This document shows positions 4,812 to 58,910 of a stretch of DNA of 64,000 nucleotides, one piece after another. Positions within the stretch are counted from its first letter, which is position 1. Every line of letters starts with the position of its first letter. The DNA is from Prostheceraeus crozeri. Taxonomy: Eukaryota; Platyhelminthes; Polycladida; Euryleptidae. The translations under genes and the position numbers were made by a program. The notes beneath the pieces are model-generated. The model was not told the origin of the DNA. It searched no databases and saw nothing but the letters and a program-made list of their open reading frames with translations. The stretch lies in assembly GCA_907163375.1 (NCBI GenBank), contig CAJQUW010001430.1:62001-126000 (forward strand). The letters are read 5' to 3'.

Positions 4812-4950
4812 TCTCCAATGAGGATTGTTGTCTAATGAGAATCAAGCATTCCTTTATAAATAGAGAGCCTTCCACAGTGAGAATCATTCCATCGTTGAAT
4901 CGTACAAGTGACGGACGCACATTCTCTCTCTCTCTCTCTCTCTCTCTCTA
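4812..4950 (+). promoter_or_regulatory. Left-end promoter and CT-rich leader
   Basis: CCAATGAG near 4814, TATAAATAG at 4855-4863, then a leader ending in a CT dinucleotide run (about 4922-4948) just before the first exon. The same promoter is at 24790-24840 in E1 and 50545-50578 in E2, so it is a family feature. The CT run is shorter in the right arm. Confidence 0.75.
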
Positions 4951-22100: not shown

Positions 22101-22380
22101 ATCTTAAATGGCGTCTCACATCTAAACGAAGACAGATATGAACAAGCCGTTGCTTTCAGTGAATTTGTCTCACTCTTAGCTTTCAAACGAGCTATTGCAC
22201 GACTTTCTACGATCACTAGAAGGAAAATTGGAAGATCGGTGACGGGGGGGGGGCGGGGGGGGGGCGTCAGCGAAAATTATTTCTCTCCGATTGCTTTCAA
22301 ATTCACCATAGAGATGCAGAATTGTACGCTGATTCCAAATCTGACATCCGTTTTTCTCCGATGCTTTGTTTTGGCGCTAC
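16126..22380 (-). repeat. Subterminal tandem array, ~325 bp unit with poly-G tracts
   Basis: After a degenerate start (16126-16690), about 18 units follow at ~325 bp spacing. Each has GATCGGTGCCGGGG extended to a run of roughly 9-17 G (near 16700, 17025, 17350, 17680, 18010, 18340 and so on to 22245), followed by CGTCAGCGAAAATT. The unit recurs singly in the E1 and E2 terminal regions, so this is an expanded part of the family's terminal repeat. Open frames up to 432 codons here are repeat artefacts. Two or three unit subtypes alternate, differing for example at GTTTTGCTCTCCGATGC versus GTTTTCCCATCCGATGC. Confidence 0.92.
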
Positions 22381-22879
22381 AACCCAAAAAGTCCAAATTT
22401 CACTCTCCCGTACCTCCTTTATCCTCAAAACACACTCACTCCACCACGTCAACCTGGCTGGTCGGCCAAGTCAACCTAGTCGGTCAGCAAAGTCAACCTG
22501 GACGGTCGGCCTGGTCAACCTGGACGGTCGGCCTGGTCAACCTGGTCGGTCGGCCAAGTCAGCCTGGACGGTCGGCCACGTCAACCTGGACGGTCGACCA
22601 CGCCAACCTGGACGGTCGGCCAAGACAACCTCTCACTCCAACCTGTGCGGCCGGCCAAGGTGGCGCGCTGTGTTTGTATGGGAGCTAGCCACTTCGAGGC
22701 GCGCTGTGTTTGTATGGGAGCTAGCCATTTCGAGGCGCGCTGTGTTTGTATGGGACCCACCCCATTTCGAGGCGCGCGTGTTTGTATTGAACCCACCCCA
22801 TTTCGGGGCGCGCGTGTTTGTATTGGACCCACCCTATTTCGAGGCGCGCTGTGTTTGTATTGGACCTTTACTGACTACT
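22381..22879. repeat. GC-rich right terminus of E0
   Basis: Short direct repeats of ~24 bp (GTCAACCTGGACGGTCGGCC and variants, about 22440-22640) are followed by ~60 bp repeats with GAGGCGCGCTGTGTTTGTAT (22668-22860), ending in TTTACTGACTACT. The first repeat is related to 23960-24010 and 49120-49165 at the E1 ends, and the second to GGCGCTGTGTTTATTGTGG near the E1 terminus. Confidence 0.75.
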
Positions 22880-23906: not shown

Positions 23907-24480
23907 AGTAGTAGTAGTAAGTAAACCTCCACAATAAATACAGCGCCCCCCCTCGGGAGAGACTGTCTTGGCCGACCGTCCAGGTTGACTTGGGCGGCCG
24001 ACCAGGTTGTCGTGTTAGAGATTCAGATTTTGGAAATGGGTGAAAACCGGCGAAGTTAGAATTTGTAAAAATCGCGTGCGACCGAAGGTTCGGATGTGAA
24101 AACGGAGGTCAGATTCGGATTCAGCGTCAAATTCTGCATCGGTATGGTGAATTTGAAAGCCATCGGAAAGAAAAAATTTTGAGGACGTCCCCCCCTCGGC
24201 AGCGTTCCTTCCAACCCTGGTTCTAGAGATCGTAGAAAGTCGTGCAATAGCTCGTTTGAAAGCTAAGAGTGAGACAAATTCAGTGGAAGAAACGGCTTGT
24301 CCATATCTGCCTTCGTTTAGATGTGAGACGCCATTTAAGATTTGGGAAATATTAGAAATTGGCGAAAAAACGACAGAGTTAGCGGCGAATTTGGGATGTT
24401 TTGGGCTCTAGCGGCTAAACGACAGCTCCAATGGCAGATCTGAGACCAGATTTGGAATCAGCGTCAAATTCTGCATCGGC
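23907..24480. repeat. Left terminal inverted repeat of E1
   Basis: It matches the complement of 45001-45305 plus 48777-49219: CAGCGCC, the GTCGGCC direct-repeat words, GAAGGTTCGG, and the G-run marked by GACGTCCCCCCCTCGG. Further degenerate subterminal units run on to about 24780. Confidence 0.85.
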
Positions 24481-24787
24481 ATGGTGAATTTGAAAGCCAT
24501 CGGAGAGAAAAAATTTTGAGGGCACCCCCCTCTGGACTAGATTTCGATCTTGGCTTGTAGGAATGGTAGAGAGTCGTGAAATAGCTCGTTTGGAAGCTAA
24601 GAGTGAGACAAATTCAGTGGAAGAAACGGCTTGTTCATATTTGCTTTTGTTTAGATGTGAGACGCCATTGAAAATTTTGGAAATTGGTGAAAAACGACAG
24701 AGTTAGAATTTTCCAAAAACAGCTCTAGCGGGCGAACGAAGGCTCGGATGGGTAAACGGAGAACAGATTTGGAATCAGCTTGATGTT

Positions 24788-25877: not shown

Positions 25878-26408
25878 ATGGATTGTGAGGGTGAACCTGT
25901 ACAGGAGCTCAGTTCTATTGCCATGGACAATTGCTCATATCAGATTGTTAGTGTCTATCATCATCATGCCAAGTGTGATCCCAAAGCTGATGGATGGGCG
26001 AGAAAACATATTCATGGACTTAATCAACAATATTTACAAGACTTTGGTCTTCCTAGTGAAAGTGCTCTTCTTATTGACTTTAAAAGATGGCTAGCAGCCT
26101 TCAATGTTATACGTATCTTTTGTAATGATTCCTCCAAGGAGAGAAAGCTTTTTCCTAATCTAGTCATTAATGATATTCTACTTCCACTTTGGGATAGTAG
26201 AGTTAATCAACACTATCATGAAGTTACGAAACGTTTCAAGGAACTGAGTGTTCCCATTTCAAATGTTCGTTGTAGTAGTTACATTCATAATCAATGTTCT
26301 TTTCCTCCTTACCTCAACACTGCCAAAGTAGGGTTTGGTTTTCATTGCTCTCCGTATGATGGTTACCAACTGTATCTATTTTATTTGTTTCAAACCCAAA
26401 ATTTGTAA
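25878..26408 (+). CDS. DEDDh-type 3'-5' exonuclease-like protein (E1 copy)
   Basis: 176 residues, open throughout. Motif I is D2-x-E4 (MDCEGEPVQEL). HIHGLN sits at 44-49, D67 or D84 could serve motif II, and H156-x4-D161 (FHCSPYDGYQLYLFY) gives motif III. Length and layout fit a minimal DnaQ-fold enzyme. It lies upstream of the PolB-N-terminal-like gene, supporting a link to DNA replication or repair. The weak point is the undefined motif II residue. Confidence 0.65.
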   Translation: MDCEGEPVQELSSIAMDNCSYQIVSVYHHHAKCDPKADGWARKHIHGLNQQYLQDFGLPSESALLIDFKRWLAAFNVIRIFCNDSSKERKLFPNLVINDILLPLWDSRVNQHYHEVTKRFKELSVPISNVRCSSYIHNQCSFPPYLNTAKVGFGFHCSPYDGYQLYLFYLFQTQNL

Positions 26409-26522
26409 TGCATGCTTGAAGAAGTCATTCAATTAAAGCTTTATGTAAAGACTTGCTGTTTTGCATGCAATTGGAGGAAGAGATGCATGATGACAATGTC
26501 TTTCTGAAATGATTGTGGAGCA

Positions 26523-26907
26523 TTGCATTTTCATAGGCAAAGTTTAAAAGTGACTATTCAAGATTATGTGATAACATTTCATAAAGATGAGATTAACATC
26601 AAATCAGCTATTGGTGATGCTAGCACACTGTTTTTGAAGTTAATGGATACGTTTTCTGATAAAATTGTAATGGCGCGATTAGTTGCGAAAATTCATTTCG
26701 GTCATTTTGGGAAAGAAGAGGTAGAAGATCGGTTCTTCCACTTTGCTTCCTATTCAATGGAAGTTGTAGATAATCTTGAAGAATTTTTTGAAAGACATAT
26801 GGGAAAAATTGCTCAACGTCTTGATGCATTTAACTATCATGGGTAGCAGTCTAGTGATTGAAGTAATTTCACATATTCACATTCAACTTTCTATAAAAGA
26901 AACTTAA
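26523..26907 (+). pseudogene. Protein resembling the N-terminal module of the element's PolB (E1 copy)
   Basis: About 125 residues. The segment EVVDNLEEFFERHMGKIAQR followed by LDAFNYHG and, after a frameshift, VIE..I..IHIQL parallels the polymerase segment near 40100-40250 (EVVD, then I.KFNERDGGLIFDGVESA). This suggests a stand-alone paralogue of a PolB N-terminal region, perhaps a dimerisation or protein-contact module. One extra base near 26848 breaks this copy, which would otherwise end at 26907. The E2 copy (51031-51391) is open. The true start is not clear in either. Confidence 0.5.
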
Positions 26908-26909
26908 AA

Positions 26910-27233
26910 ATGCAACGGTACTTGATCGTAGCACAATTGGTTTTCGAGTTATGTTTACTTACTCTCGAAGTATATTCCTTCTGCACATGCGTCTATTATT
27001 TAGAAAAGGCTAGCAAGTTCATGTCGTCAAAGAGACTTGCTTTAGAAGTTGTTAGTAAGAGTGAAAATATGTGTGATGTATGTAAGCGAAAGGATGGAAG
27101 TGAAAAACGCATCTTTAAGAGATGTAAGCATACTTTCTGCCAGCGCTGTTTCATACGCTGCTGTATTCAACTTTGTCAATGTAGCCACTGTGATATAGCT
27201 CATTTTGAGTGTCAGTTCTGCCATAAAAGTTAG
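26910..27233 (+). CDS. Membrane-anchored RING-like protein (E1 copy)
   Basis: 107 residues, open. A hydrophobic stretch at residues 4-30 (LIVAQLVFELCLLTLEVYS) looks like a signal-anchor. The C-terminal half has C-x2-C, C-x-H, C-x2-C, C-x2-C spacing (CDVCKRKDG, CKHTFCQRC, CSHC, CQFC), a compact RING or related zinc fold. RING proteins are commonly E3 ubiquitin ligases; here that is inference. It starts 2 nt after the end of the preceding gene, in the same transcription direction. Confidence 0.6.
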   Translation: MQRYLIVAQLVFELCLLTLEVYSFCTCVYYLEKASKFMSSKRLALEVVSKSENMCDVCKRKDGSEKRIFKRCKHTFCQRCFIRCCIQLCQCSHCDIAHFECQFCHKS

Positions 27234-27268
27234 TACCTATGCAAATATGGAAAGCTCAAGTTGTGACA

Positions 27269-27634
27269 ATGGTAAAGAGAAAAATGGCGAGACGTAAAAT
27301 TCGAAAGTCTTCAAAGTTTTCTGGAGCCATTCGAGCTCTTCAACGAATGAAAGGAAATCATCGATATAATGCTATACGACATGCTAATGATAAATTTTTT
27401 CGAGAAATTGTTTCTCATGTGAGAAGTTTGAGGACAAAGAAATTATCACCACAACAACGAAAGTTACTTAAGCGATATACTACAAAATTACGATTAATCT
27501 CCAATCCTAAAATCATTCTTCAAAGAAAGCGGAAAACTCTGTCACAAAAGGGTGGCTTCCTTTCAGCAATACTTCCGATGTTAGCTCCTGTAGTGGGCAA
27601 CGTATTGGGTAATATCTTTGGCTTTAAGCGTTGA
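27269..27634 (+). CDS. Basic protein with C-terminal amphipathic segment (E1 copy)
   Basis: 121 residues, open. A strongly basic N-terminal two-thirds (VKRKMARRKIRKSSKF) is followed by LSQKGGF and a hydrophobic tail (LSAILPMLAPVVGNVLGNIF). Small basic proteins with a QKGG/QRGG junction and a hydrophobic end recur in Polintons. They have been compared with adenovirus capsid-interior proteins that bind DNA or disturb membranes. The GG site could be cut by the element protease. An in-frame ATG at 27284 matches the E2 start at 51770 and may be the true start. Confidence 0.6.
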   Translation: MVKRKMARRKIRKSSKFSGAIRALQRMKGNHRYNAIRHANDKFFREIVSHVRSLRTKKLSPQQRKLLKRYTTKLRLISNPKIILQRKRKTLSQKGGFLSAILPMLAPVVGNVLGNIFGFKR

Positions 27635-27665
27635 TTATGCAAATGTTTAGTCTCAAAGTATTAGT

Positions 27666-28282
27666 TTGGATTTCAGACTTCAATGTGATAAAGTTCTGAC
27701 TGTATGAGGTTCATCCCATGCAGGTAAAACTGTTTTCACTCTGAATTTGCTAGACAGAAGAAACGAATTGTTTAGGGAACCTATCAACCGAGTGATTTGG
27801 TGTTATGGTATTTATCAGCCGTCGATCTTTCAGGAATTGCAACGTCGTAACTTATTCGAAATGAAGGAATTATTCGAGCTGATAAGATAGAGTCCAACGA
27901 TGTCGTTGTATTGGATGATCTATTGAAGGAAGGCAAGAATTCTAAAGACGTTACAGATATTTTCACTCGCGTAGCACATCACGAAAGGTGCTTTATAATC
28001 TATATCACGCAAAATTTGTTTCCTGATGGGAAAGAAGCCCGCACACGAAACCTGAATACGCACTATTACGCTATCTTTAAGAATCCACGAGATAGAAGTC
28101 AATTTGAAATTTTAGCGCGACAAGTTGCACCCAGAGGATCAAAAGCCTTAATTGAAATTTTTCAAGCAGCACCTGAAAAACAACACGGTTACTTATTCAT
28201 TGACTTTACACAAGAGTGTCCTGAAGAATTTAGATTTCGAAGTGATATCTTGAAAAGGCCTATGATTATCTACAAACTATGA
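27666..28282 (+). pseudogene. FtsK/HerA-type genome-packaging ATPase (E1 copy)
   Basis: Homologue of the E2 gene at 52167-52784. The Walker A region SSHAGKT and the Walker B region (DVVVLDDLL) are visible, but the start codon is changed to TTG (27666), a TGA precedes the P-loop, and a frameshift sits near 27855. The 3' part (27911-28282) is open and ends FRSDILKRPMIIYKL. This family pumps the genome into preformed capsids in Polintons and related large DNA viruses. The stop codon overlaps the next gene's ATG (ATGA). Confidence 0.85.
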
Positions 28283-28997
28283 GCTCCTATTCTCGCATGA
28301 TTGTTATTCCTCAGGATGAATATGTGCAATTGACTGCTTTACAGCAAGTAAAGCAACCTCTAGCAAATGAAATTTATAAGAAAGAACTGGATTATCAGGA
28401 AAATGCACATATTAAAGATCATATCGCGCAGTTTTTTTACAATCAGAAACTGTTGAAGAATTGAAAAGTTTGAAGAATAAGATGCGTGACTCTGTTTCGA
28501 CTGCTACACCTTAAGCATCTCGTGCACATGCAATAGCTCTTTTCAACAGCATTGAACCATATCTCAATGTGAATGATGGAGGTGAAATCATTACAGATGA
28601 TGATAAAATTGTTAGCGCTTCGCGTTATGAAGACTTGGTTCAGTATGCAACGCGTAGAAAACGTCGAGAAGGTTATGTCCCACATGGTTGTCCATATTTT
28701 CTTCAACTATTGAAAAAGCATAATGTTCCGAAATTTGCATTGAAAAATGAAACATTGAAAGAACTTGATTCTACTTCATAAGTTGGTACTACTTCAAAAG
28801 TTAATTCTGTTCCTAAAATTAGGAGTGTTACAATGCCAAGAAATTGGTTTAAGAGTTCACCTTCTGAATCTCCTTCCACACTTGCTAAGAAAAAAAGAGA
28901 AAGAGAACGACGTAGATCTACACCCTCTAAGCAAACAAGAGGAAGAGATAGACGTAGACGATCTGCACCAAAGAAATATATGTTTTCAGACTATTAA
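28279..28997 (+). pseudogene. Polinton conserved protein with basic SR-like tail (E1 copy)
   Basis: About 238 residues reconstructed over one frameshift near 28438 and two in-frame stops (near 28513 and 28779). The start MSSYSRMIVIPQDEYVQL overlaps the ATPase stop by 4 nt. The middle (GGEIITDDDKIVSASRYEDL and GYVPHGCPYFLQLLKK) and the Arg/Ser-rich end (RERERRRSTPSKQTR, ending KKYMFSDY) resemble a conserved Polinton protein of unknown role in this gene position. It is truncated in E2 by a deletion after about 37 codons. Confidence 0.55.
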
Positions 28998-29163: not shown

Positions 29164-30246
29164 GAAGAAAGAGAATGAGTCAGTCGTCATCACATGAACT
29201 TTTAAAGTCAATCTATTATGATGTAAAACATCCGGCAGGATTTGCATCTATAAAAAAATGTCAAAAGCGAGTGGTCTTCCGCAATCACAAGTTAAACAAT
29301 GTTAAAGGGTCAGGATACCTATACACTCCACAAACAAGTGAAAAAGAAGTACCGTACCCGTCATTATATTACTCATGACATTGATGAACAGTGGCAGGCA
29401 GATTTGTGTGACGTTGCCTCCATTTCAAAACATAACTCGGGAAATAATTTTATTTTGACAGTAATTGATATTTTCTCGCGATATGCGTGGGCTCAACCTT
29501 TAAAAACTAAAGAAGGTAAACGAGTAGCAAAGGCATTCCAGTCAATTTTCCAAGAGGGTCGCATTCCAAAGAGAATTCAGAGTGATCAAGGAAAAGAGTT
29601 CGAAAATCAGCATGTGGGAAGATTGTTTGAGAGATATGACATTGAGTTGTTTAGTGTAAAGAGTGCCTATAAGGCTGCATTAGTTGAACGTTTTAACCGC
29701 ACATTGAATAATCGCTTGTGGCGACATTTTACTGCCAACTTAACACAAAATTGGACAAAGATTCTACAAGATACGGTACATGCCTACAATCACTCTGTGC
29801 ATAGCTCTATTGGTCTCAGACCAGCAGATGTGAATGCTGACAATGTAGATGAAGTGCGTAAAACATTCCAACGTAAGCGTAATAATGCAAAAAGTGATGT
29901 AAAAATAGGCGATAAATATCGCATATCAAAAGTGAAGAGTGCTTTTGCCAAAGGTTATCTCCCGAATTGGACAGAAGAAATTTTTACAGTTTCAAACATC
30001 AATAAAAAAGACTCTCCCACAACGTACAAGTTAAAAGATTACGATAATGAAGAAATGGATGGCAGCTTTTACCGTGATGAGATTGAGGCAGTCACTGAAA
30101 GTGAAACATATTTAGTAGAGAAAATCATCCATTGCAAAAACGTCAAGGCGAGGAATAGTGTCTTGTTAAATTGTCTCGGTTATCCTTCAAGTATGAACTC
30201 TTGGATGCGTCGAGCAGACGTTTTTCATCAAAGTGATCGCAAGTGA
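29160..30246 (+). pseudogene. Retroviral-type integrase with chromodomain (E1 copy)
   Basis: The N-terminal region (IYYDVKHPAGFASIKK) is typical of Polinton integrases. A frameshift at an A-run near 29256 separates it from the catalytic core. The core has D in DEQWQADLCD, D in IQSDQGKEFEN and E in AALVERFNR, with 33 residues between the last two, slightly short of D35E. The C-terminal chromodomain starts YLVEKIIH and ends GYPSSMNSWMRRAD. The enzyme would insert the element with 6-bp duplications. The chromodomain (likely histone targeting) is degenerate here but well kept in E2. Confidence 0.9.
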
Positions 30247-30286
30247 TTTATGCAAAACTATAACTTGAGAGTTCAAGATTTAAGTA

Positions 30287-30767
30287 ATGAATCCGACTGT
30301 ATCGTTTTATTCACGTCCCTCTTATGTAAGTGGCGCGGGTACAATTTACTGTGGTGCTCGCCGTCAACGTGGAGGTAGTATATTTGGCGCGCTGAAATCT
30401 GTTGTAACTCCTCTCTTATCTACTGTCGGAAAAACTTTAAAACGATCTGTTTTAAGTAATGCTGTTGGCTTTGCTGGCGATGTTTTCAATGATATTGCCA
30501 GTGGAAAAAATATAAAGAGTTATATCCTTATGAAGGACTGTACTAAATTGTGGGAAGGAATTCGGTTTAAGAACATTACAGGAATCCTTAACTCGTAATC
30601 AACAAAAGAAAGCACCTAGACGAATGAATGCTAGAAGAAAAAGAAAACAGCGTGGAACTGGTAAGAGGCGAACTTCACGCAAATCTAAGAAAAGGTATTC
30701 ACGCAAACGCCGCCCGCGCTCTAATCCTTCATCGCGTGCTAAACGACGACGCTGTCATAACTTCTAA
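30287..30767 (+). pseudogene. Basic virion-core-like protein (E1 copy)
   Basis: The N-terminus MNPTVSFYSRPSYVSG leads to ARRQRGGSIFGALKSV, a QRGG junction common in Polinton core-type proteins, then an amphipathic region. A frameshift near 30540 precedes the very basic end (KRRPRSNPSSRAKRRRCHNF). The intact E2 copy has 151 residues. Condensation of the genome in the particle is the likely role, by analogy with adenovirus core proteins. Confidence 0.65.
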
Positions 30768-30844
30768 TCATAGAGTGTAAAACTTCAAATTTTGTTTGCT
30801 TGATCAACAAGCGATACAGACAGATATTCTTAGTTCAACAAGCG

Positions 30845-32071
30845 ATGCAGACAGATATTCTTAGTTCAAGTATTGTAGATTATCATCCTCGAACTGCTGA
30901 GAACACTGGCCCAATTGAATTTGGCATTCCTGGCGATAGTGATGACTACATTGATTTAAGTTATGCGATGGTTGATGTGCGGTTCAGAATTCAGCAAGCA
31001 GATGGTACTAACATCGATGCTACACATAAAGTTGGTCTGAACAATTTACCGCTGGCAACACTATTTCGTGATGTTTCTCTAACTATTGGAGAGGAACAGG
31101 TAGAAGGTGGACAAAGCGATTATCCCTATAAAGCATATTTTAATGCCCTATCACAGTTTCATCCGTCAGCACAAAAGAGTCATATGGAAGCAATGGGATG
31201 GTATAGAGATCAAGCAACACAATTTGATAGTGAGACAAACGCTGGTTTTGTAAAGTGATCTGCTTTGATTAAAGATAGAAAGTATGTCAGCTATATGGTC
31301 CACTAATCTTGACTTCTTCAGACAGTCAAAGTTTTTACTCTGTAATACCAGCATACGAGTCAAACTTACATTGAACAAGTCTGAATTTTTGTTGAATGCA
31401 TATGCTAAAGTTGTCAATTTTAAAATCCGTGTGGAAGATCTTGCGCTATACATTCGTCGAGTGGTAGCTAATCCAAGTGTAATTAGAGGACATGCTGAGG
31501 GTCTTAACCGTAGCAATGCTATTTATCCCAATCAACATACAAAGCTTCTCACATTTACTATTCTTAAAGATCAAAAGAGTTTTATGAAAGATGGTTTATT
31601 TCCATCAGAAGCACCAAAACTCCTAATGGTAGCAATGGTTGAAAATGATGCATTCAATAGCAATGTCAGGAAGAATCCTTTCAACTTCAAACACAACAGT
31701 TTGAGCGAAATTGCTTTACGTGTAAATGGTGTCAGTCATCCTGGACCGCCCTATAGACCAAACTTCTCTTATCAATTTTTGCGCAGGCATGTTGACAATA
31801 TGAATGTCTTTGGCTTTTAAAACACAGACGACACCAACGGGCTTACAATGAAAGAGTTAAGAATGGCTATACTATTTATGCATTTGATTTGACTGCCGAC
31901 AGTGATATTAGTGCACTTTATCGTCTAGCTAACGTTCCTCATAATGTTCGCTTGGATCTGGAGTTTCAAACAACGCTAGCTGCGACGATCAATGTATTGA
32001 TTAATGCAGTTTTTGATTCAAATATTGAAATAACTAAGTATCGTGACGTGATTCTTCACTATAATCGTTAA
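30845..32071 (+). pseudogene. Major capsid protein, double jelly-roll type (E1 copy)
   Basis: About 410 residues over three breaks: CGA to TGA near 31256, a frameshift near 31285, TAC to TAA near 31818, and a frameshift near 31855. Landmarks are SSIVDYHPRTAENTG, GLNNLPLATLFRDVSLTIG, EGGQSDYPYKAYF and TKYRDVILHYNR. Proteins of this type are often labelled F54H12.2-like in animal genomes and were recognised as Polinton capsid proteins. The ATG used is 30845; a local duplication of about 50 bp just upstream repeats the start region. The TAA stop overlaps the protease ATG (TAATG). Confidence 0.75.
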
Positions 32072-32532
32072 TGAGTTGGTTAAACGCTGACGATATTAAA
32101 GCCAAAGTACAGCGTAATGTAGATGAAGCTACGTTGAAAGCTTCTGATAATGTCTATTCGCTAGATACCCTACCAACTGCAGTAAAACAGTATCCCATCT
32201 CTATTGTATTGAACACTCAGTCAAAGAATTTCGAAGGTGAACATTGGAAAGCTATCTTTATTGGAAAAGACAGACGCTGTGAACTATTTGACTCTCTTGC
32301 TCAACCTCCAAATATACCAACACAGCAGTGGCTGAGAAAACATACTCGTCAATATCAACGAAATGATCGCATACTACAACATCCACTTTCATCAACTTGT
32401 GGTGCTTTTGTATTGTACTTCATCTTAAAACGTTTGCATGCACGTCAATTTAAATCTGTTATTCAAAAGTTTTCATGTAACCCATCTTCTAATGAAAAGA
32501 TGATTTGTAAGTTCTATAATGATTTGAAATAA
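32071..32532 (+). CDS. PRO: Adenain-type cysteine protease (E1 copy)
   Basis: 153 residues, open. The catalytic set is visible in the order typical of the adenovirus/Ulp1-like fold: H58 in GEHWKAIFIG, D74 in ELFDSLAQPP, Q103 in ILQHPLS and C110 in STCGAFVLYF. It would mature capsid and core proteins, and QRGG/QKGG sites in the neighbouring basic proteins are candidate substrates. Its start overlaps the capsid-gene stop. The same length and residues in E2 show it was kept longer than most genes here. Confidence 0.9.
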   Translation: MSWLNADDIKAKVQRNVDEATLKASDNVYSLDTLPTAVKQYPISIVLNTQSKNFEGEHWKAIFIGKDRRCELFDSLAQPPNIPTQQWLRKHTRQYQRNDRILQHPLSSTCGAFVLYFILKRLHARQFKSVIQKFSCNPSSNEKMICKFYNDLK

Positions 32533-32543
32533 AACATCATATT

Positions 32544-32565
32544 GGAATAAAAATTGTTTTATTTC
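32544..32565. terminator. Convergent polyadenylation signals, protease / TBP-like gene
   Basis: AATAAA on the plus strand (32546-32551) and AATAAA on the minus strand (32563-32558) are interleaved; the minus signal overlaps the TBP-like stop codon. Confidence 0.6.
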
Positions 32566-33104
32566 ACAATCCGCTGGGTATGTACATATTCGATTAAATG
32601 GTCTAGGATTGTATCTGCTTGTACTTCTGATTTCAGTCCACTAATGATAACTTTACTGTTGCGGAAGATTGCAATGTGTACAGGATTCCAACGATTAATG
32701 AGAGCTGCGGGAAAACGTTCTGGCTCATAACACAAATTGTAGCTGCTGCTATGAATCTTTGAAAACGATACATTTTCACTCAATTGAGTAGAGATCACCA
32801 TGTTGTTCACAGTCAGATTTGACATCACACACTTCTCCCTCTTCCATATCCGACGTAGTAGCTTCTGCAGTTCTAAGCGCATTAACCGCTCCGATGAATG
32901 AGAAAGGGCGCCGAGAATTTGTACCGTCCCGTTTGGAAAGAGTTGAAGGTCCCGTAAATTGCTCATCTTCACCAGTAACATTTGCGGTCGACCCGGATAA
33001 TACTAGCTGTTTGGAATTACTTGATGTAATGTTGCGAGATCGATATTGGTATAGAGTCTGATGAGGCGGAGAATGTTGACGATGGTGCAACGATGACGTC
33101 TCAT
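32559..33104 (-). pseudogene. TBP core-like transcription factor (E1 copy)
   Basis: From ATG at 33104 one frame runs 181 codons, the size of a TATA-binding-protein core, with a single internal TAG (33005-33003, codon 34). The two halves align with each other as TBP repeats do. Repeat 1 has TIVNILRLIRLYTNIDLATL, YYPGRPQMLLVKM and LQLFPNGTVQILGALS. Repeat 2 has MVISTQLSENVSF, YEPERFPAALI and IAIFRNSKVIISGLKS. The second half carries the YxPERFPAxI...F.(N/S)GK...TGxKS pattern of the family. It is likely an element-encoded factor recognising its own TATA promoters. It is convergent with the protease and its N-terminal half overlaps the PC4-like B frame. Confidence 0.78.
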
Positions 33105-33430
33105 GATGAAGAAATGAGTAAATAGAGCGATGTATCTTCCTTTTATACTTTTTCCCAACTACCTTGATGAAATGTGAAGCAGATAGAAAGTTGGGAATGA
33201 TAGATTTGTATTCGTTGCTTTTTAAGTCGCAACCATATGCGATTTCCCATGCGTGAATGTCTTTTCATATAGAAGTATTTCAAGTCCTTCATGATATGAT
33301 TTAGGCACTGAAAATGTCGATATGATAAAGCAAATTCTCTTCTCATATTTCCAGTATAGTCTTTGAAATGAACGTTTTGATCATAATCAATCTCAACATG
33401 TTGTAGGGAATCTAATTTCCAACTCTTCAT
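32776..33430 (-). pseudogene. PC4-like DNA-binding protein B with acidic tail (E1 copy)
   Basis: The start MKSWKLDSLQHVEIDYDQNV (33430) is followed by VHFKDYTGN.RREFALSYRHF, a strand-strand-helix pattern resembling the PC4/Sub1 single-stranded-DNA-binding fold, and by a second block ending SWEKYKR..HRSIYSF. One extra A near 33153 shifts the frame. The continuation to 32776 is an acidic, low-complexity tail (TGEDEQFTGPSTLSKRDG, SDMEEGEVCDVKSD) read in a different frame over the TBP-like gene. PC4 proteins act as transcription coactivators. The family assignment is from pattern only. Confidence 0.45.
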
Positions 33431-33466
33431 GATGGAGCGTAACATTGTGTTGAAGGTGGTGTCTGA

Positions 33467-33835
33467 TTAAGATTTGCATAGCAAAGAGATGAACTCTCGA
33501 CGAATAAATGACATATTGGAGTGATGCATCCATCTTTTATATTTTTCCCAATTGTATTTGCGAAATGAAAAATAGATTGAGGAATAAGAATGACAGATTT
33601 GAATTTCATTTCTGAAATTTTGAAGCCAAACTTGACTACCCAAAGAGATGAATTTTAGCGTTTCAAAATATTCCAAATCCCTCATGATGTCATTAAGATT
33701 AAAAAATTGTCGCCATGTTAATGTAATTCCTCTCGATGTATTTCCATGAGAATTTTTGAAATGAACGTTTCCATTGCGATCAACTTTGATGTATTGTTGA
33801 GAATCCAAAATCCAAGTCTTCATGATGTTATGCAA
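33467..33835 (-). CDS. PC4-like DNA-binding protein A (E1 copy)
   Basis: 122 residues, open, from 33835 or the in-frame ATG at 33823 (MKTWILDSQQYIKVDRNGNV). It is a paralogue of protein B and shares NVHFKNSHGNTSRGITLTWR, IWL/VWLQ and the SF.K.NWEKYKR..H block. Basic residues in the RGITLTWRQF segment are where PC4 contacts DNA. It is divergent from the next plus-strand gene, whose ATG is 33 bp away, so one short AT-rich region must serve both. Confidence 0.5.
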   Translation of the reverse strand: MHNIMKTWILDSQQYIKVDRNGNVHFKNSHGNTSRGITLTWRQFFNLNDIMRDLEYFETLKFISLGSQVWLQNFRNEIQICHSYSSIYFSFRKYNWEKYKRWMHHSNMSFIRREFISLLCKS

Positions 33836-33867
33836 ATTGGTAATATATAGATCACCAGAATATGAAA
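33836..33867. promoter_or_regulatory. Divergent promoter between PC4-like A and virion-type gene 1
   Basis: Only about 32 bp separate the two start codons. TAATATATAG lies inside. E2 has the same compact arrangement at 58888-58910. Confidence 0.45.
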
Positions 33868-35264
33868 ATGTCGTTTTACTATATTCTGCTTAGCAATGCA
33901 GCAACAAATAGATTTGCCAGTAATCGTGCCGCAATCTGTTGTACTCCCATTGATAATATACAACAGCTGAATGGAGAGTGGGAAGTAGGGGTCACACAAC
34001 TTGTTCATAGTAACTGTGTCTATACTTTTGATCATAAGGTGATGACTATTAATATGAGACGCACATTTGCTTACCAATGTGAAAAGGGTTGCCGAGTATA
34101 CATTCCACAATGGCCGAAGAAAGATCTTCTATCATGTCAGAAATTCGTTTATGATTTCCAGAATAAAGCGTGTAAACACATTGTTCAATTTACTCCACAC
34201 AATGGTGATCACAATTATGTACATCATGTAGTTGATAAAGATTGGATTGTTGCTTTGAGTTCCAGTTTAAGAAATGATTTAGGTTACCTCGCCAGCACCT
34301 TAACAAGCTATGATAATTGCAACGTTAATTGCCACCCAAGTGGTCATAAACAGTTAATATATCGAGAGGAAGCTTTTTATGTAGATCTTATTCCAAGAAA
34401 TGAGAACACGTTGGTGAAGAAGATTGTGATGAAACCAAGAAAGACAAACATGACTCCTGAAACATTATTGAAGAAATTTAATTATCTCCTTCGAGTTGAT
34501 GGTAAACAAGTGGCAACATTGACTTATCTCAAATCATCTAATCATATTGCAATAAGTAAATTAAATGATGATGATCTAGTATTAGTTTGTTCAAAAGATT
34601 TTCATCAGTTCTTACGACATACTTCTGCAGCTGTTCATGGAAAATTTGATGTGCAACATTTGCCATGTGAAAGGTCAAATTAATTTGATACAGAATGGTC
34701 CGTATCTTTATACAGAAAGCGTATAGAGCCTGTAGGTGGTACCTTACATGAAACAAGAGTGTTGATGCCTCGCATTATAACTTCAGTTAAATTGGTTATC
34801 GATTATTTGAATGAAGTGATTAATGAGCAACATATTTCATTTCTGAAAAAGAAGATGCTTTGTCTCTCACTGTAAGTGTGAAAGATATTGAACTAATTAT
34901 GGATAAAACTCTAATGAACATTTTGGGTTTTGATCAAAATATCTTTGCAAGTGGTACTGTAACCAAAGCTAGCGCAGACATGTCGCTATCGCGTCGTATT
35001 AACTATTTTCAGATATATTCCAATATTGGTGAAGATGTACGTGTGGGAGATGTTGAAGCTCCCCTGCTAGCAATGATACCATATCAACCAAAAAGATGCA
35101 GTATTTTATCTGAGCATACTTTCAAGAAAGTGCATTATACAAAGCTGAAATCAAACTACATCCCACAAATTGATATTGAAATTTATGACGATGCTGGTGC
35201 GTTGATTCCTTTTCATTAAGATGCTGTAACAAGTATCACACTCCATTTCCGAATGAAGAGTTAA
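33868..35264 (+). pseudogene. Conserved Polinton virion-type protein 1 (E1 copy)
   Basis: About 465 residues with an in-frame stop at 34681, a frameshift near 34850 and a stop near 35218. The start MSFYYILLSNAATNRFASNR and GEWEVGVTQL mirror the start of the next gene, and the C-terminal third (FQIYSNIGEDVRVGD, then PQIDIEIYDDAGALIPFH and ITLHFR) is a signature common in Polintons. Location among late genes and abundance of beta-strand-like segments suggest a structural protein such as a minor capsid or spike component; the role is not established. Confidence 0.55.
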
Positions 35265-35303
35265 TGCAAAAGTATGCTAATATATTTTTCCAATGTGAAT
35301 AAT

Positions 35304-36797
35304 ATGGAAAGTGAAAATACAGATTCGTTTCTAGTATACTTACCCAGCAATGCTTCTATGAAAGAATTTCCTAATAATAAACCATCAGACTTTCCAGTAG
35401 AATTAAATCGCTCACTACATCTAGAAGGCGAATGGGAGGTGGGCGTTTCTAGTATTTGCCATGATAGCAACATTCAGAATGTGAATGATTTGGAAGAAAT
35501 GATATTGACTCCTCGCATCCATGATGGAATAACGATGAATAATACATTCCAGTCCCCATACAAGTTAACGTCAGATGGAAAGTGGAACTATGAATGGATT
35601 CAGATAAAATCAGATTATTATGGTCCATTTGGGAATGAGAAAATTATTCAATAGTGGCAATACTTCGATCACAAAGTTTATGAGTTTAATATCTATCATT
35701 GGAATGGAAGACAGTTCCTTTGCTTTCATTATTTTACTGAAGGTCTTATACTGAGGTTGGATAATGAATTCTCTCCACATCTCGGTTTTGGGCACGGTCT
35801 ACATCTAACGTGAATTGTTACTGCAAATGTCAAAAAAGTTTATTCAAAACGAATCAACAAATTTCATTATAAATTTAAAATGTTTGATGATGTTGTAGAA
35901 CGTGAAGATCACATCATTTTGAAAAAGCGTGGTGTTCAACCTTTATCACTTACTGAGTTAGTAAAACGATGGAATGAGACTGTTGGTAAGAAGTATGGAG
36001 AGAAGATTATGGCGGAGAAGGATAAGTTGGTTATTCAGAAATATAATGACAAACTTACAGTTCATTTCTCTCCAACCTTGCGTCATTTTGTAAGACATCC
36101 ATCACCTATTATTGGAAGCGGTGTGGTGTATGCTTCTCATGAATATCACATTAAAGCTGATTCAGTTAATGATGAATGGTGGGTGGACATCTATGGTGAT
36201 CGCATCAAGAAAATTTACCAGTCTTATCAGGAATCTAAAGTTGGTATCAATATAATGCCGCGTCTATATCATACAGTTGAAAGCTTCATTCATGTAATAA
36301 ATCCTTATATACAACAGAAGTTGAAGCATGTGATGAAAATAAATATGATGTAAAGACACACCACATTTCGTTTTCAATTGAAAATCAACGAGTTGTTCTG
36401 AAACTGGGTGATGACATTCAATGTCAATTGAGCAAAAATTTGAAAAAACTGTTTGGTTTTTCAATGCTACAAAATAAGTTTACTGCTGCGCATACGATTG
36501 GTATAGAAACACCAATGACACTTGATAAACATGAACAACACCTTTACATTCAAAGTGATTTGATTCCACCTATTTCTGTTGGCGAGGAAAAAAGAACACA
36601 TTTTACGTGATTTCATTCATGATAAAGATGCTTTATATAGAATAGTCGAGAAGATGTTTCAACCTATTTTCTACCATCCTGTTATCAAACAAACTATACC
36701 ATCTATTTCTATCAAAATTACAAATGGTCTACATGAGTGCATCCATGTCAAAGATACTAAATCCCTCGTAACTTTAGTGTTTCGGAAAACAAAGTGA
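35304..36797 (+). pseudogene. Conserved Polinton virion-type protein 2 (E1 copy)
   Basis: About 490 residues in several frames (breaks near 35654, 35815, 36352 and 36590). The N-terminus has the LPSNAS....FP.N...F.VEL pattern and LEGEWEVGVSSICHD. The end ISIKITNGLHECIHVKDTKS followed by LVTLVFRKTK matches the C-terminal signature of the preceding paralogue. Relative to E2 about 30 bp are missing near 35650. It is a likely tandem duplicate of the preceding gene with a related virion role. Confidence 0.5.
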
Positions 36798-36804
36798 AGT
36801 CATT

Positions 36805-36830
36805 GTAAAATTTTATTGAAATAAAAATAT
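36805..36830. terminator. Convergent polyadenylation signals, virion-type gene 2 / PolB
   Basis: AATAAA on plus (36820-36825) and on minus (36817-36812). The 36798-37078 gap holds no gene. Confidence 0.55.
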
Positions 36831-37078
36831 ATGTATGAAAAAGTCTTTTCACAGATATAGGGGGAATGGGCTGACTGTAGGCATCTATTCACAAGGAAGT
36901 GCAATCTAAAGCGATACATAAAACAACAATGAATGTCAGCAAAAGCATCATCAAAATAATAATTTGAGACTGAATCTATTTACACATCTCCTGAATGTGG
37001 TAGTGTGAGTTTAATTCTTTTGGATAGTGATATATTTGTATCAGGATGACCATGTGGATGAGATATGTTATGTTCTAT

Positions 37079-40000
37079 TCAACACCTCTTATCCCCCCAC
37101 GCTGAAAGTGCTCGCTTTCTAAATGTATGAGTTTTTACCTCATGCGTGTTTGATTTTAAGATGGTCATGTTGACAAACGTTGCGCACTTATTTTTAAAGG
37201 CCTTCTTATAGACCCTATGTTTCATATTTACAACAATCGACTTAGATATGCCTCTTGCGCGTTTAATACTGTTACTGGAGTCTTTTGGTTTCATAGAATA
37301 CATTTTAGGACGAAGAAGAATCATTTCTTTAATTTCTTTTCCTGCCATTTCATCTTTGAAGCATCCTAATTTTGCTTTATTTTTAGTAGAGTATAGTGGG
37401 TGATCTGTAGGATAAATTGATGTATCAAAATATTTTTCTAAAGATTTTCCTACTTCATTGAAATTTAACTCTCTCTGAGCAGCGATACTTAAAAGGAAAC
37501 TGTCTGTATCACCACTCAGCAAACGCACGTCTTTAATTAGAAGACATGGTTTTAATATTCTATAGAGGAGTCGATGCATTTCAAGCTTGGAATAATCTAA
37601 TACAGCTTGTTCAATGTAGATGGGCTTGCAGAACTCTACTTCTGATTTTATCATTTTAACACCAACCAATTCATCATCTATAATATCTCTATCAATAGAG
37701 AGAGGTGATGCCGCTAACTTTTGAAATTTATCATTATGATTCACAAGTTTATAGTTTATACGTTTTCTAACATCCTCCATCGTCTTACCAAAAAGACTAC
37801 TATTCTTATATTCATAAAAATCTTTTTCAAAATTATTTTGGGCTAGTGTACGTTTCTGGCTGTCACTATCAATATATGGTTTCAGAAAGGCTTTCTGTCT
37901 AAATTTGATAATGCGGTGAACTGTTTTTAAAATCATGCCCATTTCTAAATAAAATTTTAAGATGGAAAAGTGGACTAGATAATTTTCTTTATCAAATTGA
38001 GCAAGCAAGAGTTTACGACAAGGCTTATACTTAGGTTGTCCACTCCCTTCTAAATCTTTATGAAATTGTTTCATAAAGTCCGAAAACATATCTTCAGTCA
38101 CTTCACCTGATTCGGGCGCAAGTGGAAAATCCACAGTTTTATTTTTAATACTATTTGGATAGATGAGATCTACCTCAAAAAAATAATATCCCCAATCACC
38201 ATCATCTGGAATAGCTAGTATGTTTGAAGGATTGGAGAAATTTTGAATTTCACTATCACCTAGCCAGCTAAACTCAGAGTGAGGTACAGGTTTGGATAGT
38301 GACCTACCATATAAATTATTCTGGTCATAGTACTTTAGATGAATCTGGTCATCATCTACTACTTTTGATTTTATTTGATGTCTATTTACAAATGTGAGTC
38401 CACCACGAATTCCTCGCTCAAATAAATTATACATCTCTGGATCTTGCAAAAGATGGATGGTCTCTCCAGTCATTTTAAAAGCAGACTGGAATGACATGGC
38501 TGGAAGACTGACAAAGTGGATAGGGTCTAATTTATCTTCTTCTAATGTCACTCGTCGAAACTCCTGAAATACATCAGCCAGCAAAAATACATCTAATTTT
38601 AGATAGGCGATCATATAATCGCTAAACGTTTGACAGTCAAATTTTGTACATGCAACTTGAGTATGATTGTAATCTACTGCCTTACATTCTATACCAGTGA
38701 AATCATTTTTAAATTTATATATTGATGGAAGAGAAGTCTCACTAAGTTTAGAAATGTTGTCAAAGTATGCATATGGAAACAGTTCTTTGCATGTGATGAC
38801 TTCATCTGTCAAGTTAGGATATTGTTTCTTCAAATTTTGAGTTAGTGGAAGAGACTTAAGATTTTGAACGAGAGATGCTAGTGATAAAGTCATGAATTGA
38901 TAGGAATCTAAAAATTTTATATCAAAGTAGACTGTCTTATTTTCTTTAGTCTTATCAACTGGTACTTTTGCTATCATGGACATAAACTTTTCTCTCGTTT
39001 GAGGCATAACATTCATCAACCACCCCTTCATTTTTCTTAACCCCTTTTATTATCATATGGCTGTCATTGCCTTTGAAGTTATGAAGATTTACGGGTAGAG
39101 TGCGCCGTTTCATTCTTAGAGAAAAATTGCATCTTGAACAGAGTGCGTTTCTAAATTCACCAGTGATGTGATCATGGTCGCGCACTTTCTTAGTTTTACC
39201 CTCATCAAACGTTTTATTACATTTTGAGCAGACTTTACAACTTTCAAATTTTACCTGATCATGTGCTGTCATATTTAATGATCTGTGATAGAGTTCACTG
39301 TCACCTTTTTGTTGAAATTTACTAGCACTTTCCAGGAATTGCAAGAATTTGTGTATACAATCCTCACCTTGCCAGACGTACATTTTATTATTTTTATTTT
39401 GGAAATGATCATGTCATACCTCATAACAGGATTTGGCTGCTGGCTTGTGGATGTTATCATCAATATAGCATTCGATTTCAGCATAGATGACACAAAGAGG
39501 ACTTAATTCACTACCATTTTCTCTATATGAAAAGATTTTATCTTTGGGCATGCGTTCCATTTGCAATTTACCTCGCTTACACCATTCAATATGCGTTTGA
39601 AATTTATCTTTTGAGCAGAAGGATCTCATACAACGGTCACCCATGAAATGCTCCCCCTTTTGGATGTTAAGTGGGAATATAGTCGAGGTTGACAACACGA
39701 TCATAAGTTGATGAACGTTAGTTGTAGCGTACACCTTTAAGTCCTTTTCGCCAGACGTGAACAACTATTTTAATTTCATTTACTTTTTTAAATTTCTCCA
39801 TATCTTTCAATTTCATATCTTCACTATTGCAGTCATCAAATTTCAATTCATTCTCCCATTGATGATATTTGATTTTACGGAAACGGCTGTTCTGTACATC
39901 ATGATAGTGGAGAATGGATAAAACCGCATACATTGCGATTCACAATCTATAGACATGACTGCTTTCATATCTTTTAACGTTTTTGGAAGATTGAAGGAGC

Positions 40001-44990: not shown

Positions 44991-45741
44991 TTAAGCTGGA
45001 AATCACCCTACCGATGCAGAGTTCGACGCTGATTCCAAATCTGGTCTCAGATCTGCCATTGGAGCTGCCGTTTAGCCGCTAGAGCCCAAAACATCCCAAA
45101 TTCGCCGTTAACTCTGTCGTTTTTTCGCCAATTTTCAATATTTCCCAAATCTTAAATGGCGTCTCACATCTAAACGAAGGCAGATATGGACAAGCCGTTT
45201 CTTCCACTGAATTTGTCTCACTCTTATAGCTTTCAAACGACCTATTGCACGATTTTCTACGATCACTAGAACCAGAGTTGGAAGCAACGCTGCCGAGGGG
45301 GGGGGTAGGGTGGTCCAAAATACAAAATTTCCGAAATCGCTTTCACTCCCATAACGCCCTTGTTCCAAATGCTAAATACAGTCTGTGATTGAATTTTGAG
45401 GACTATTGCATCAAATTAAGAGGTCGCGCTCAAGTAATAGATATGATTACTATAATAGTTTACACATTGATTTTTTTCTGATTTTCAAATTCACACTTTT
45501 AAAATTGAACATCATACTAATAGCCTATAAGCTAACAAATCTGATATGTATTTATTTAGCTTTTGCTTGATTATGTAAAAGACAGAAAACAAATATATTT
45601 GAATTACGAAAAATGAGTATATTTCAGAAATATTCAAACTATGCTGTCAATACTACTTTAATATCTAAGAGCATAATACACACACAACTGTAATTCTTAC
45701 CAAGTAGGCTACATAAACAAGTTAACTTACTAAACGTCCCA

Positions 45742-51393: not shown

Positions 51394-51750
51394 ATGCAGT
51401 GGTACTTGATTGTAGCACAACTGGTTTTCGAGCTATGTCTGATCACTCTCGAAGTATATTCCTTCTGTACATGCGTCTATTATTTAGAAAAGGCTAGCAA
51501 ATTCATATCTTAAAAAGGACTTGCTATAGACATCAGTAACGGTGAAACTATGTGTTGCGATGTATGCAAGCGAAAGGATGGAAATGAAAAGCGCATCTTC
51601 AGGAGATGTAAGCATGCTTTTTGTCAACGCTGTTTCATACGTAATTGCATTCAACTTTGCAAATGTAACCACTGTGATATTGCTCATTTCGAGTGTCACT
51701 TATGCCGCAATAGTTCGCACCTATGCAAATGTGGTAAAGACAGGTTTTAG
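51394..51750 (+). pseudogene. Membrane-anchored RING-like protein (E2 copy)
   Basis: Homologue of 26910-27233 with one in-frame TAA (51511-51513) between the membrane segment and the zinc domain. The zinc domain (CDVCKRKDG, CKHAFCQRC, CNHC, CHLC) is intact, and the C-terminus is longer than in E1 with an extra CKCGK. Confidence 0.6.
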
Positions 51751-52135: not shown

Positions 52136-52166
52136 TTATGCAAATGTTGAATCTCAAAGTATTATA

Positions 52167-53119: not shown

Positions 53120-54509
53120 CAGGGTGAGTCAAAAAAACGTTATTTACCTTTTGTGGGATATCTGTTATAAGTTACAATAAAATGCAACAACAGGCGGTTA
53201 TGAACATTGAAAAAGCTGCTCCTCACAAGCTGTGGTTACAACAGCGACTCAAACTGAGCACCTTCCTGCTGAATGCAAAGAGAGCATCGTCGAACAAATG
53301 AGTCATAGGCCTTCATGCAGGCGTTAGATGTGAAAGAAGTAATTTCCTCTCGAATGCAGGCTGTCAGTTATCTCGTATTTCTTGGCAGTCGCGCATACAC
53401 TCGGTCTCTTAACGCTCCCCACAGGAAGAAGTCGCAAACAGTAAGGTCTGGAGAACGGGGTGGCCACTCAACTGGTCCTGTTCGACCAATCCACCGACCC
53501 GTCAGATTTTCGTCGAGGATTCTTCGACTTGCGTTGCTGTAGTGGGGAGGGGCTCCATCCTGTTGATAGAATCTGCTCTGGTTTTTGTTTCGTCGCAAGA
53601 AGGGAATAACATGCTGTTTCAGAACATTGCAGTACCGATCGCTGTTCATCGTTAGTTCACTGATGTCGTAACTCAGCACTTCAGTATGGTCTGTCATGGC
53701 CCATACAGTGACAGATCTCCGGTCATGAAGCTTTTTGACGAAAGCTTTAGGGTTCTCAGTGCTCCAGTAGTGCAGATTGTGCTTATTTACAATTCCATTC
53801 ACATGAAAGACAGCTTCGTCGGAAAAAACTATTCGGAGATGGAATTGAAGATGCTGAAGTGAGGAATTGAGGATCCATTGAAAGAAGTCGAGACGTCGGT
53901 CGTGATCGTCATCTGAGAGTTCCTGGACGAAGGTTGGCTTATAGGGATGATACTTTTTCTTATGAAGACAGCGAACGACGCTACTTTGCGAGACTCCAAG
54001 CGTGTTGCTTATGCGACGCGTAGAAACGTTGGGGTCATCTTCAATTATCGGCTTGATGGAGGTAAAGATATCGTCACCTGTAGCCGTCACTGGACGACCA
54101 CTTCCATTTTCACTCTTATTCATATCCCCATACGTAAGGAACCAACGATGGACTGTCGGTGGAGGTGGGGCTTCCTCATGAAATTCATCCATGTATTTTC
54201 TCCTTGCTTCGGACACATTGTTGAATGTAACCGCCCATGCAACAAGCCTTGCCTTCCTTTCCATCATAGTTTGGCATGAATGAAGCACTAAATGAATACT
54301 TGTACATACACTTGTATAAACTATGTACAGAAGCCATTCGTTCGATGATATGAATTCGAATTTTTTTGAACTTAGAGCATTGATTTGGTGCTTGGATATG
54401 GAAAATAAAACCATAGAAATTCAATCAGTCAACTTGAGAAAGAAATCAGAATGACAATTCGGATAGATTTTTCACAAACTTTAAATAACGTTTTTTTTGA
54501 CTCACCCTG
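53120..54509 (-). mobile_element. mariner element, DD41D type
   Basis: 1390 bp with terminal repeats starting CAGGGTGAGTCAAAAAAACG and ending with its complement, flanked by TA on the right (54510-54511) and TG (a changed TA) on the left. It occupies a site that is uninterrupted in E1. Confidence 0.92.
53236..54267 (-). pseudogene. mariner transposase (DD41D)
   Basis: 343 codons from MMERKARLVAWAV with a single in-frame TAA at 53370-53368. A paired helix-turn-helix region precedes the catalytic FSDEAVF, YQQDGAPPHY and SPDLTVCDFFLWG. 41 residues lie between the second and third Asp, as in the rosa-type branch of Tc1/mariner. One stop only, so the insertion is young relative to the decay of its host element. 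Confidence 0.88.
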
Positions 54510-57644: not shown

Positions 57645-58165
57645 TTATTTTACAATCCGCTGGGTACGTACATACTCGATCAGATAGTCTAGGATCACAT
57701 TTGCTTGTACATGAGATTTTAGTCCAGTGATTATCACTTTACTATTATGAAAGATTGCAACATGCACAAGTAACCAACAACTAATGAGAGCTGCAGGAAA
57801 AAGTTCGGGTTCATAACACAAATTGTAACTGCTGGTACGAATTTTCAAAAATGATACACTTTCATTGAATTGAGTAGAGATCACCACATTGTCCACAGTC
57901 AGATTCGACATCACACACCTCTCCCTCTTCCATATCCGACGTAGTAGTCTCTGTAGCTCTAAGCTCATTGACTGCGCCGATGAATGAGAAAGGGCGCCGA
58001 GAATATGTACAGTTTCATTTGGGAAGAGTTGAAGATTCCGTGAATTGTTCATCTTCACCACTAACATTTGAGTTCGACCCGTTGGTGTAATGTTGTGAGA
58101 TCGATTTTGGTGTAGAGTCTGAAGCGACGGAGAATGTTGACGATGGTGTAGCGATGGCGCTTCAT
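57645..58165 (-). pseudogene. TBP core-like transcription factor (E2 copy)
   Basis: It starts at 58165 (MKRHRYTIVNILRRFRLYTK). A 25-nt deletion relative to E1 near 58085 moves the remainder out of frame. The rest keeps GRTQMLVVKMNN, LQLFPNETVHILGALS, YEPELFPAALIS and IFHNSKVIITGLKS. The 521-nt span plus 25 equals the 546 nt of E1, so the ancestral 181-codon size is supported by both copies. Confidence 0.75.
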
Positions 58166-58496
58166 GATGAAAGAATGAGTAAATTGAGCGATGTACCTTC
58201 CTTTTATACTTTTCCCAACTACCTTGATGAAATGTGAAGTTAGTATGAAGTTGAGAATGATAGAGTTGAATTCGCCGTTTGTTGACGCGCAACCAGATGC
58301 GATTTCCAACATTTCCAATACGTGAATGTCTTTTCATATAGAAGTATTTCAAATCCTTCATGATATGATGTAGAGATTGAAAATGACTATAAGATAAAGC
58401 AAACTCTCTTCTCACATTTCCAGTTGAATCTTTGAAATATACGTTTCGATCATTATCCGTTTCAATACGTTGTGGGGAATCTTATTTCCAACTCAT
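58015..58496 (-). pseudogene. PC4-like protein B (E2 copy)
   Basis: Starts MSWK at 58496 with an immediate TAA, then VYFKDSTGNVRREFALSYSH and HQGSWEKYKRKVHRSIYSFF in frame. The acidic tail (SGEDEQFTESSTLPK) lies in the frame that the 25-nt deletion disconnects; it ends at 58015. Confidence 0.45.
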
Positions 58497-58518: not shown

Positions 58519-58887
58519 TTAAGATTTGCATAGTAGGGCGATGAACTCACGACGAATAAATGTCATGATGGAGCGATGTATGTATCTTCTATACTTCTCA
58601 CAATTGTATTTGCGAAATGAGAAACAGTTTGCGGAATGAGAATGGCAGATTTGAATTTCATTGTTGCGACGTTGAAGCCAAACTTGATCACCCAAGGAGA
58701 TGAATCTTAATGTTTCAAAATATTCCAAATCCGTCATGATATCATTGAGGCTGACAAATGGTCGCCATGTTAATGTAATACCTCTTGCAGTATGACCATG
58801 AGAATTTTTGAAATGTACGTTTCCATTACGATCAACTCTGATATATTGTAGAGAGTCCAAAATCCAAGTCTTCATGATGTTATGCAA
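58519..58887 (-). CDS. PC4-like protein A (E2 copy)
   Basis: 122 residues, open, co-linear with 33835-33467: MKTWILDSLQYIRVDRNGNV, HTARGITLTWRPFVSLNDIM, NCEKYRRYIHRSIMTFIRRE. Conserved length and few changes suggest long-kept function. Confidence 0.5.
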   Translation of the reverse strand: MHNIMKTWILDSLQYIRVDRNGNVHFKNSHGHTARGITLTWRPFVSLNDIMTDLEYFETLRFISLGDQVWLQRRNNEIQICHSHSANCFSFRKYNCEKYRRYIHRSIMTFIRREFIALLCKS

Positions 58888-58910
58888 AGTTGCAGATCAG
58901 CAATATAAAA

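Follow-up and report, generated by a model that had tools for sequence, protein, structure and literature searches.

A divergent TATA-binding protein gene in a Polinton-type element of a polyclad flatworm, with a predicted part in promoter choice

Polintons are generally assumed to depend on host transcription. Several other viruses encode TATA-binding proteins (TBPs) of their own, and the nearest working parallel to the case considered here is ORF24 of KSHV. In the excerpts of PMC12529657 that deal with it, ORF24 is a herpesvirus TBP mimic that works with TATTWAA late promoters, in which all four DNA-wedging phenylalanines are present and the TFIIB-contact glutamates are absent; a further C-terminal domain also binds DNA, and the protein acts in a six-protein complex. 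A TBP is found in 59% of mirusviruses (excerpt of PMC10132985), and a TBP-type factor is described for a poxvirus (PMC12917281). TBPs of giant viruses are treated in passages of PMC11464507 and PMC12085832, the latter crediting CpV-BQ1 with one TBP and two TFIIBs. As a rule, according to the relevant passage of PMC7221094, viral TBPs diverge at their TFIIB contacts, and many giant viruses and mirusviruses encode their own TFIIB as well. Is there then a Polinton with a TBP? The original prediction for the present locus knew of no standard Polinton gene list that includes one, and we found none either: among the literature matches listed there is no TBP of a Polinton, Maverick or adintovirus, which does not prove absence from print. 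The matching passages of papers that name both Polinton and TBP (PMC11464507, PMC12085832) refer to giant-virus TBPs. The words TATA and TBP are absent from PMC11071296, PMC4642659, PMC10120064 and PMC10328495, and in PMC11071308 the word TATA is absent and the count for TBP is 0.

The window, by which we mean the whole 64,000-nt stretch of Prostheceraeus crozeri DNA that was analysed, holds two copies, E1 and E2, of an element of about 21 kb (Table 1). As in Polintons and Mavericks, E1 has an integrase, a Ulp1-type protease and terminal inverted repeats, together with weak signals for an ATPase (PF04665, E = 0.046; phrog_6891, 0.0035; an FtsK/A32-type packaging ATPase was sought) and for core protein X (PF05829, 0.0013, under the cut-off). 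E1 and E2 also carry a TBP gene, which none of the papers found reports for that group. Segments 26151-28394 and 29367-38926 of E1 align with E2 at 84%. A minus-strand ORF of 650 aa (37079-39031) we take tentatively, from its DTDS motif, to be a DNA polymerase of the protein-primed B type; it has no polymerase match in Pfam, PHROG or PDB, and the candidate ORFs for a jelly-roll capsid have no match in Pfam or PHROG. Adjoining the presumed polymerase ORF is an endonuclease VII domain (38955-39383; PF02945, 5.9e-08, above the cut-off). A Tc1/mariner-like transposase ORF (53368-54414; PF01498, 4.3e-06, under the cut-off) breaks up E2 and splits its integrase region. A tandem array at 16394-22401 consists of 18 copies of 324 bp, and its units share about 79-83% identity with the terminal inverted repeat of E1; the ends of E1-type elements seem to have given rise to this satellite array, or the reverse.

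Table 1. Positions in the window of the features of element copies E1 and E2
Feature	E1	E2	Strand	Remarks
Left terminal inverted repeat	24189..24490		+	94.7% to right arm
Right terminal inverted repeat	45000..45303		-	~300 nt
ATGCAAA box before core-protein-X-like gene	27239..27245	51723-51729	+	
ATGCAAA box before ATPase-like gene	27637..27643	52138-52144	+	E1 start by homology, without ATG
rve (retrovirus-type) integrase	29299..30246		+	PF00665, 2.5e-11, 44.2 bits (cut-off 32.6)
ATGCAAA box before ORF30287	30250..30256	55393-55399	+	
Ulp1-type protease	32071..32532	57157-57618	+	PF02902; E1 3.9e-05, 24.0 bits (cut-off 20.7); E2 19.3 bits, under cut-off
TBP-family gene	32559..33104	57645..58165	-	E1 181 codons + stop, single in-frame TAG at codon 34; E2 single frameshift
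Initiator-like TCATTY	33112-33117	58173-58178	-	TCATTT in E1, TCATTC in E2; its A 32 nt past first T of TATA box
TATA box TATAAAAG	33140..33147	58201..58208	-	43 nt 5' of TBP start codon
Gene B	33143..33445		-	adjoins TBP; paralogue of gene A (alignment A2); ATG at 33430
Gene A	33467..33835	58519..58887	-	predicted PUR/PC4/Whirly-type fold; E1 ATG at 33823
ATGCAAA box before gene B	33473..33479	58525-58531	-	
ATGCAAA box before ORF33868	33830..33836	58882-58888	+	between divergent genes
ATGCAAA box before ORF35304	35264..35270		+	E2 variant ATGTAAA, 37 nt before start

To judge from its sequence, the minus-strand frame at 32559-33104 is the TBP gene of a Polinton-type element. The frame was noted to run for 181 codons on the minus strand, as it does from 33104 to 32559, and the gene to be present in both copies with one simple lesion apiece, which proved to be an in-frame stop in E1 and a frameshift in E2. 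In the latter, the intact relative P0001 (see below) aligns by tblastn with 58165-58073 and 58127-57648, in differing frames. The proposed membership of the TBP family also held, since both open pieces match PF00352, the Pfam TBP family, above its cut-off of 22.9 bits (E1, 140 aa, 6.8e-12, 45.5 bits; E2, 4.2e-10, 39.8 bits). When the E1 piece is compared with PDB sequences, 35 of the 38 matches (E up to 10) are TBPs, 34 of them named as TBP, TFIID or fusions and one entered as ECU04_1440 protein. Searches by tblastn with nine relatives as queries found two copies only, and no third, within the window. The dN/dS ratio between the TBP pieces of E1 and E2 is 0.27 (bootstrap 0.15-0.50; 140 codons), akin to the ratios of gene A (0.24) and the protease (0.19), which argues that the TBP gene was under purifying selection before the two copies decayed.

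Comparison of the E1 piece with 5.8 billion proteins gave five relatives out of 13 candidates, among them P0001, which is intact at 184 aa, and with P0001 as query 39 proteins (P0001 itself counted) were obtained out of 54 candidates. All 39 match PF00352; two bear the JGI name 'TATA-box binding protein' and the other 37 are nameless. A profile of the 39 retrieves 35 PDB sequences (E up to 0.1; best 3.2e-26), all of them TBPs, including one under the name ECU04_1440 protein. P0001 has no PHROG match at E up to 0.01, and scores 72.8 bits against PF00352 (cut-off 22.9) in two stretches. These two stretches agree with the earlier suggestion that the protein consists of two self-aligning halves; plain pairwise alignment of the halves of P0001 does not, as its score of 31 is not above the shuffles (mean 24, largest 44). 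The saddle fold by which the prediction was to be checked is indeed the fold predicted for P0001, with about 19-26% identity to cellular TBPs in structure alignment, and giant-virus TBPs are present among the structure matches.

How do these proteins relate to the TBPs of cells? A tree of 48 rows sets E1, E2 and 38 of the 39 relatives apart from seven cellular TBPs and P0043, with support of 93/95, just under the tool's star. Within it, E1 and E2 are mutually closest (97/80) and P0001 is next (99/93). The separation from cellular TBPs is seen for all relatives except P0043, a member of alignment A1 and an outlier, with an end branch of 2.7, a place on the cellular side and the fourth wedge phenylalanine kept. 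The tree does not place the origin of the family among the seven cellular TBPs included. That the gene is a recently captured fragment of a host TBP or TRF, or a functionless passenger in the element, would accord with the breakage of both window copies, and is at odds with the equal position of the gene in two diverged copies, with the dN/dS of 0.27, with the intact state of P0001 and with the split in the tree, short of the star as it is; this reading was already disfavoured and we give it hardly any credence. The search for intact homologues in other Polintons succeeded for the protein, in P0001, and yielded no Polinton locus: scans of IMG/VR gave zero confirmed loci, whether P0001, alignment A1 or the 650-aa ORF of the minus strand was the query, and a genome-contig scan with A1 gave three, all Lokiarchaeota TBPs, so that the genomic context of the family is known from the window alone.

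The residues with which TBP touches DNA have been assigned, and we give them here in human numbering, with the core as in 1cdw, and count them over the 39 relatives. Of the four DNA-wedging phenylalanines, F210, F284 and F301 are retained in all 39, and F193 is replaced by Pro in 35 of the 36 relatives covered, the exception being P0043. N163 is Asn in all 26 relatives covered, N253 and V255 are each kept in 38 of 39, and T309 in every one. In the N-lobe groove, T218 is replaced by Leu in 36/39 and V216 by Gln in 39/39. The TFIIB-contact glutamates are retained, E280 in 38 relatives (the remaining one has Asp) and E282 in all. By our own mapping, R231, R235 and K239 are positions of the published N-lobe basic patch for TFIIA, TAF1 and Mot1; R231 is Arg in 9/39, and Arg or Lys occurs at R235 in 9/39 and at K239 in 24 of the 32 covered. 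With conserved glutamates and C-lobe residues on the one side and changed N-lobe residues on the other, this TBP family has a canonical C-terminal lobe, the dock for TFIIB, and a remodelled N-terminal one. Given the Pro at F193 and the altered N-lobe groove, canonical TATA binding by the element TBP does not seem assured. One might think of such a protein as a decoy, which would occupy host TFIIB or host TATA boxes and dampen host transcription without selecting any promoters of the element. Retention of the TFIIB-contact glutamates beside an altered DNA-binding N-lobe would suit a decoy; the three wedge phenylalanines, invariant in 39 of 39, speak rather for DNA bending, the TBP gene shares its cassette with genes for predicted single-strand binders, and we consider interference of this kind improbable.

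The original prediction placed the gene beside TATA promoters of the element. For the TBP gene itself this stands, as a TATA box with an initiator-like sequence precedes it in both copies. For the other genes it does not, as no other promoter-placed TATAWAW is conserved between E1 and E2. In the plus-strand alignments from 24600 on, four TATAWAW sites are common to the two copies, of which only that of the TBP gene is promoter-placed, the other three being within reading frames (for site 35868, as judged from the frame at the corresponding E2 site). General use of TATA boxes by the element genes was dropped as an explanation with this count of one in four. A scan for TATA plus initiator gave five matches in E1, two of which overlap as one site, against 0.3 expected (reached in 0/200 shuffles), one match in E2 (reached by 27/200 shuffles) and two in the flank 1-24199 (7/200 shuffles). 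Outside E1 and E2, identical TATA plus initiator sites occur on opposite strands at 4855 and 11703, each followed by a 61-codon frame; they are perhaps two copies of another repeat. The promoter of the TBP gene may also have left a trace in the relatives. Eight of these have frames extending 5' of an HFFxM start, and six of the eight are long enough to cover residues -15 to -13, which read SIK in four, YIK and PIN; the E1 DNA there reads S-I-K. Such residues are as expected from a TATA box read through at equal spacing, and in this sense all six relatives that reach far enough upstream appear to fit, in a count read from protein only, in which two of the six, P0014 and P0016, are nearly identical. 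The frame of P0018 also extends 5' of the start, and lies outside the count because HFFxM was required.

What, then, precedes the other genes? In both copies, ATGCAAA stands before five of the nine genes tested and RTGYAAA before six, always on the sense strand and 29-49 nt 5' of the start codon; the reverse complement of ATGCAAA is absent from the tested upstream windows. The test comprised nine gene pairs, the integrase and the capsid-candidate gene being left out because their starts are unclear. The three genes without a box are those for the protease, gene A and TBP; gene A has the box at 33830 in reverse orientation, 7-13 nt before its start. Not one 7-mer preceded more than two genes in both copies in any of 1,000 shuffles. 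ATGCAAA is the most enriched of 13,303 7-mers in the upstream windows, which hold 11 of its 20 occurrences in 1.8% of the sequence; the binomial value of 1e-14 ignores the relatedness of the copies and the prior noticing of the motif. All 10 occurrences of TATGCAAA fall within the two elements, which make up 30.4 kb; the remaining 33.6 kb of the window has none. Taken over all positions, ATGCAAA is just slightly more frequent than expected (34 against 20.9 in the whole window, reached in 0/100 shuffles; 12 against 7.3 in E1; 8 against 5.6 in E2), so that the signal is one of position. No initiator is evident near the boxes. A 3'-end signal was also considered, because several boxes come after a stop codon, and is opposed by the site at 33830 between divergent genes.

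Is the box a target of the element TBP? N163 and N253 lie at the centre of the TBP groove, where on structural grounds a box with a central G:C step fits poorly. As both residues are retained, the mid-box G:C step of RTGYAAA counts against the box as a TBP target. In the main rival to our reading, the TBP would be a real Polinton transcription factor for ordinary TATA boxes, that of its own gene and perhaps those of the host, and RTGYAAA a POU-octamer-like sequence read by a host factor and unconnected with the TBP. ATGCAAAT is the known POU octamer (abstract of PMC5999741), three of the four wedge phenylalanines are retained, and among conserved TATA boxes that of the TBP gene alone is promoter-placed, as would fit self-regulation. 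Against this, any of T, A, G and C can follow ATGCAAA and RTGTAAA forms are present, so that the full octamer is not conserved; the distance from box to start (29-49 nt) resembles that of the TATA box (43 nt); and the N-lobe is remodelled. We regard this division of labour between element and host as rather unlikely.

The reading that we prefer, with a probability of about one half, is that the divergent TBP belongs to the Polinton and directs the host's TFIIB and RNA polymerase II towards the promoters of the element. Host TBP would first read the TATA/initiator promoter in front of the viral TBP gene. The product of this gene, its TFIIB-holding half kept and its N-terminal half changed, would then recognise the other promoters of the element, most likely through RTGYAAA as candidate target, and would pass them on to the TFIIB and polymerase II of the host. 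Use of host TFIIB is favoured by the conserved glutamates together with the outcome of a Pfam scan (E up to 0.1) of 30 ORF pieces, a subset of the ORFs, among which the TFIIB family had no match. The neighbouring proteins, of putative PUR/PC4 type, would either bind single strands once these are opened or serve as co-activators. Their fold is that of a model of gene A, to which Foldseek by itself gave no support, and is carried over to gene B as the probable fold of a paralogue. Linkage of TBP and gene A beyond the window is favoured by longest contigs of 1,771 and 12,876 nt, sizes common to the relatives of both. Should the element have a self-made promoter switch, it would consist of a TATGYAAA-type box private to the element, placed on its genes for packaging, core and accessory proteins, with PUR/PC4-type partners from the same cassette; this is a tentative proposal, and the odds lean against it. 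Against the preferred reading stand, besides the changed wedge and groove residues, the central G:C step and the want of an evident initiator at the boxes, the broken state of both window copies, the fit of RTGYAAA to the host POU octamer and the three of nine genes without the box.

If the reading is true, a dedicated TBP with contacts for host TFIIB would be a minimal takeover of promoter choice by a small DNA virus, where giant viruses pair a TBP and a TFIIB that are both their own and herpesviruses rely on a six-protein complex. Through the candidate private box the promoter model is directly testable, and the family offers a natural experiment in how the two halves of a TBP diverge separately. 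With the cellular TBPs of archaea and eukaryotes (PF00352), the element TBP shares a predicted two-repeat saddle, three of the four wedge phenylalanines and the TFIIB-contact glutamates; it differs from them by the Pro at the fourth wedge, by the altered N-lobe groove and by its place on a mobile element. Unlike the TBPs of mirusviruses and giant viruses, it keeps its TFIIB contacts, with no TFIIB among the scanned ORFs. The likeness to KSHV ORF24 is that of a viral TBP-like protein joined with a non-canonical TATA-like box, here a candidate one. Unlike ORF24, the element TBP is a bare TBP core, with three phenylalanines and both glutamates, and its manner of recruiting polymerase would differ.
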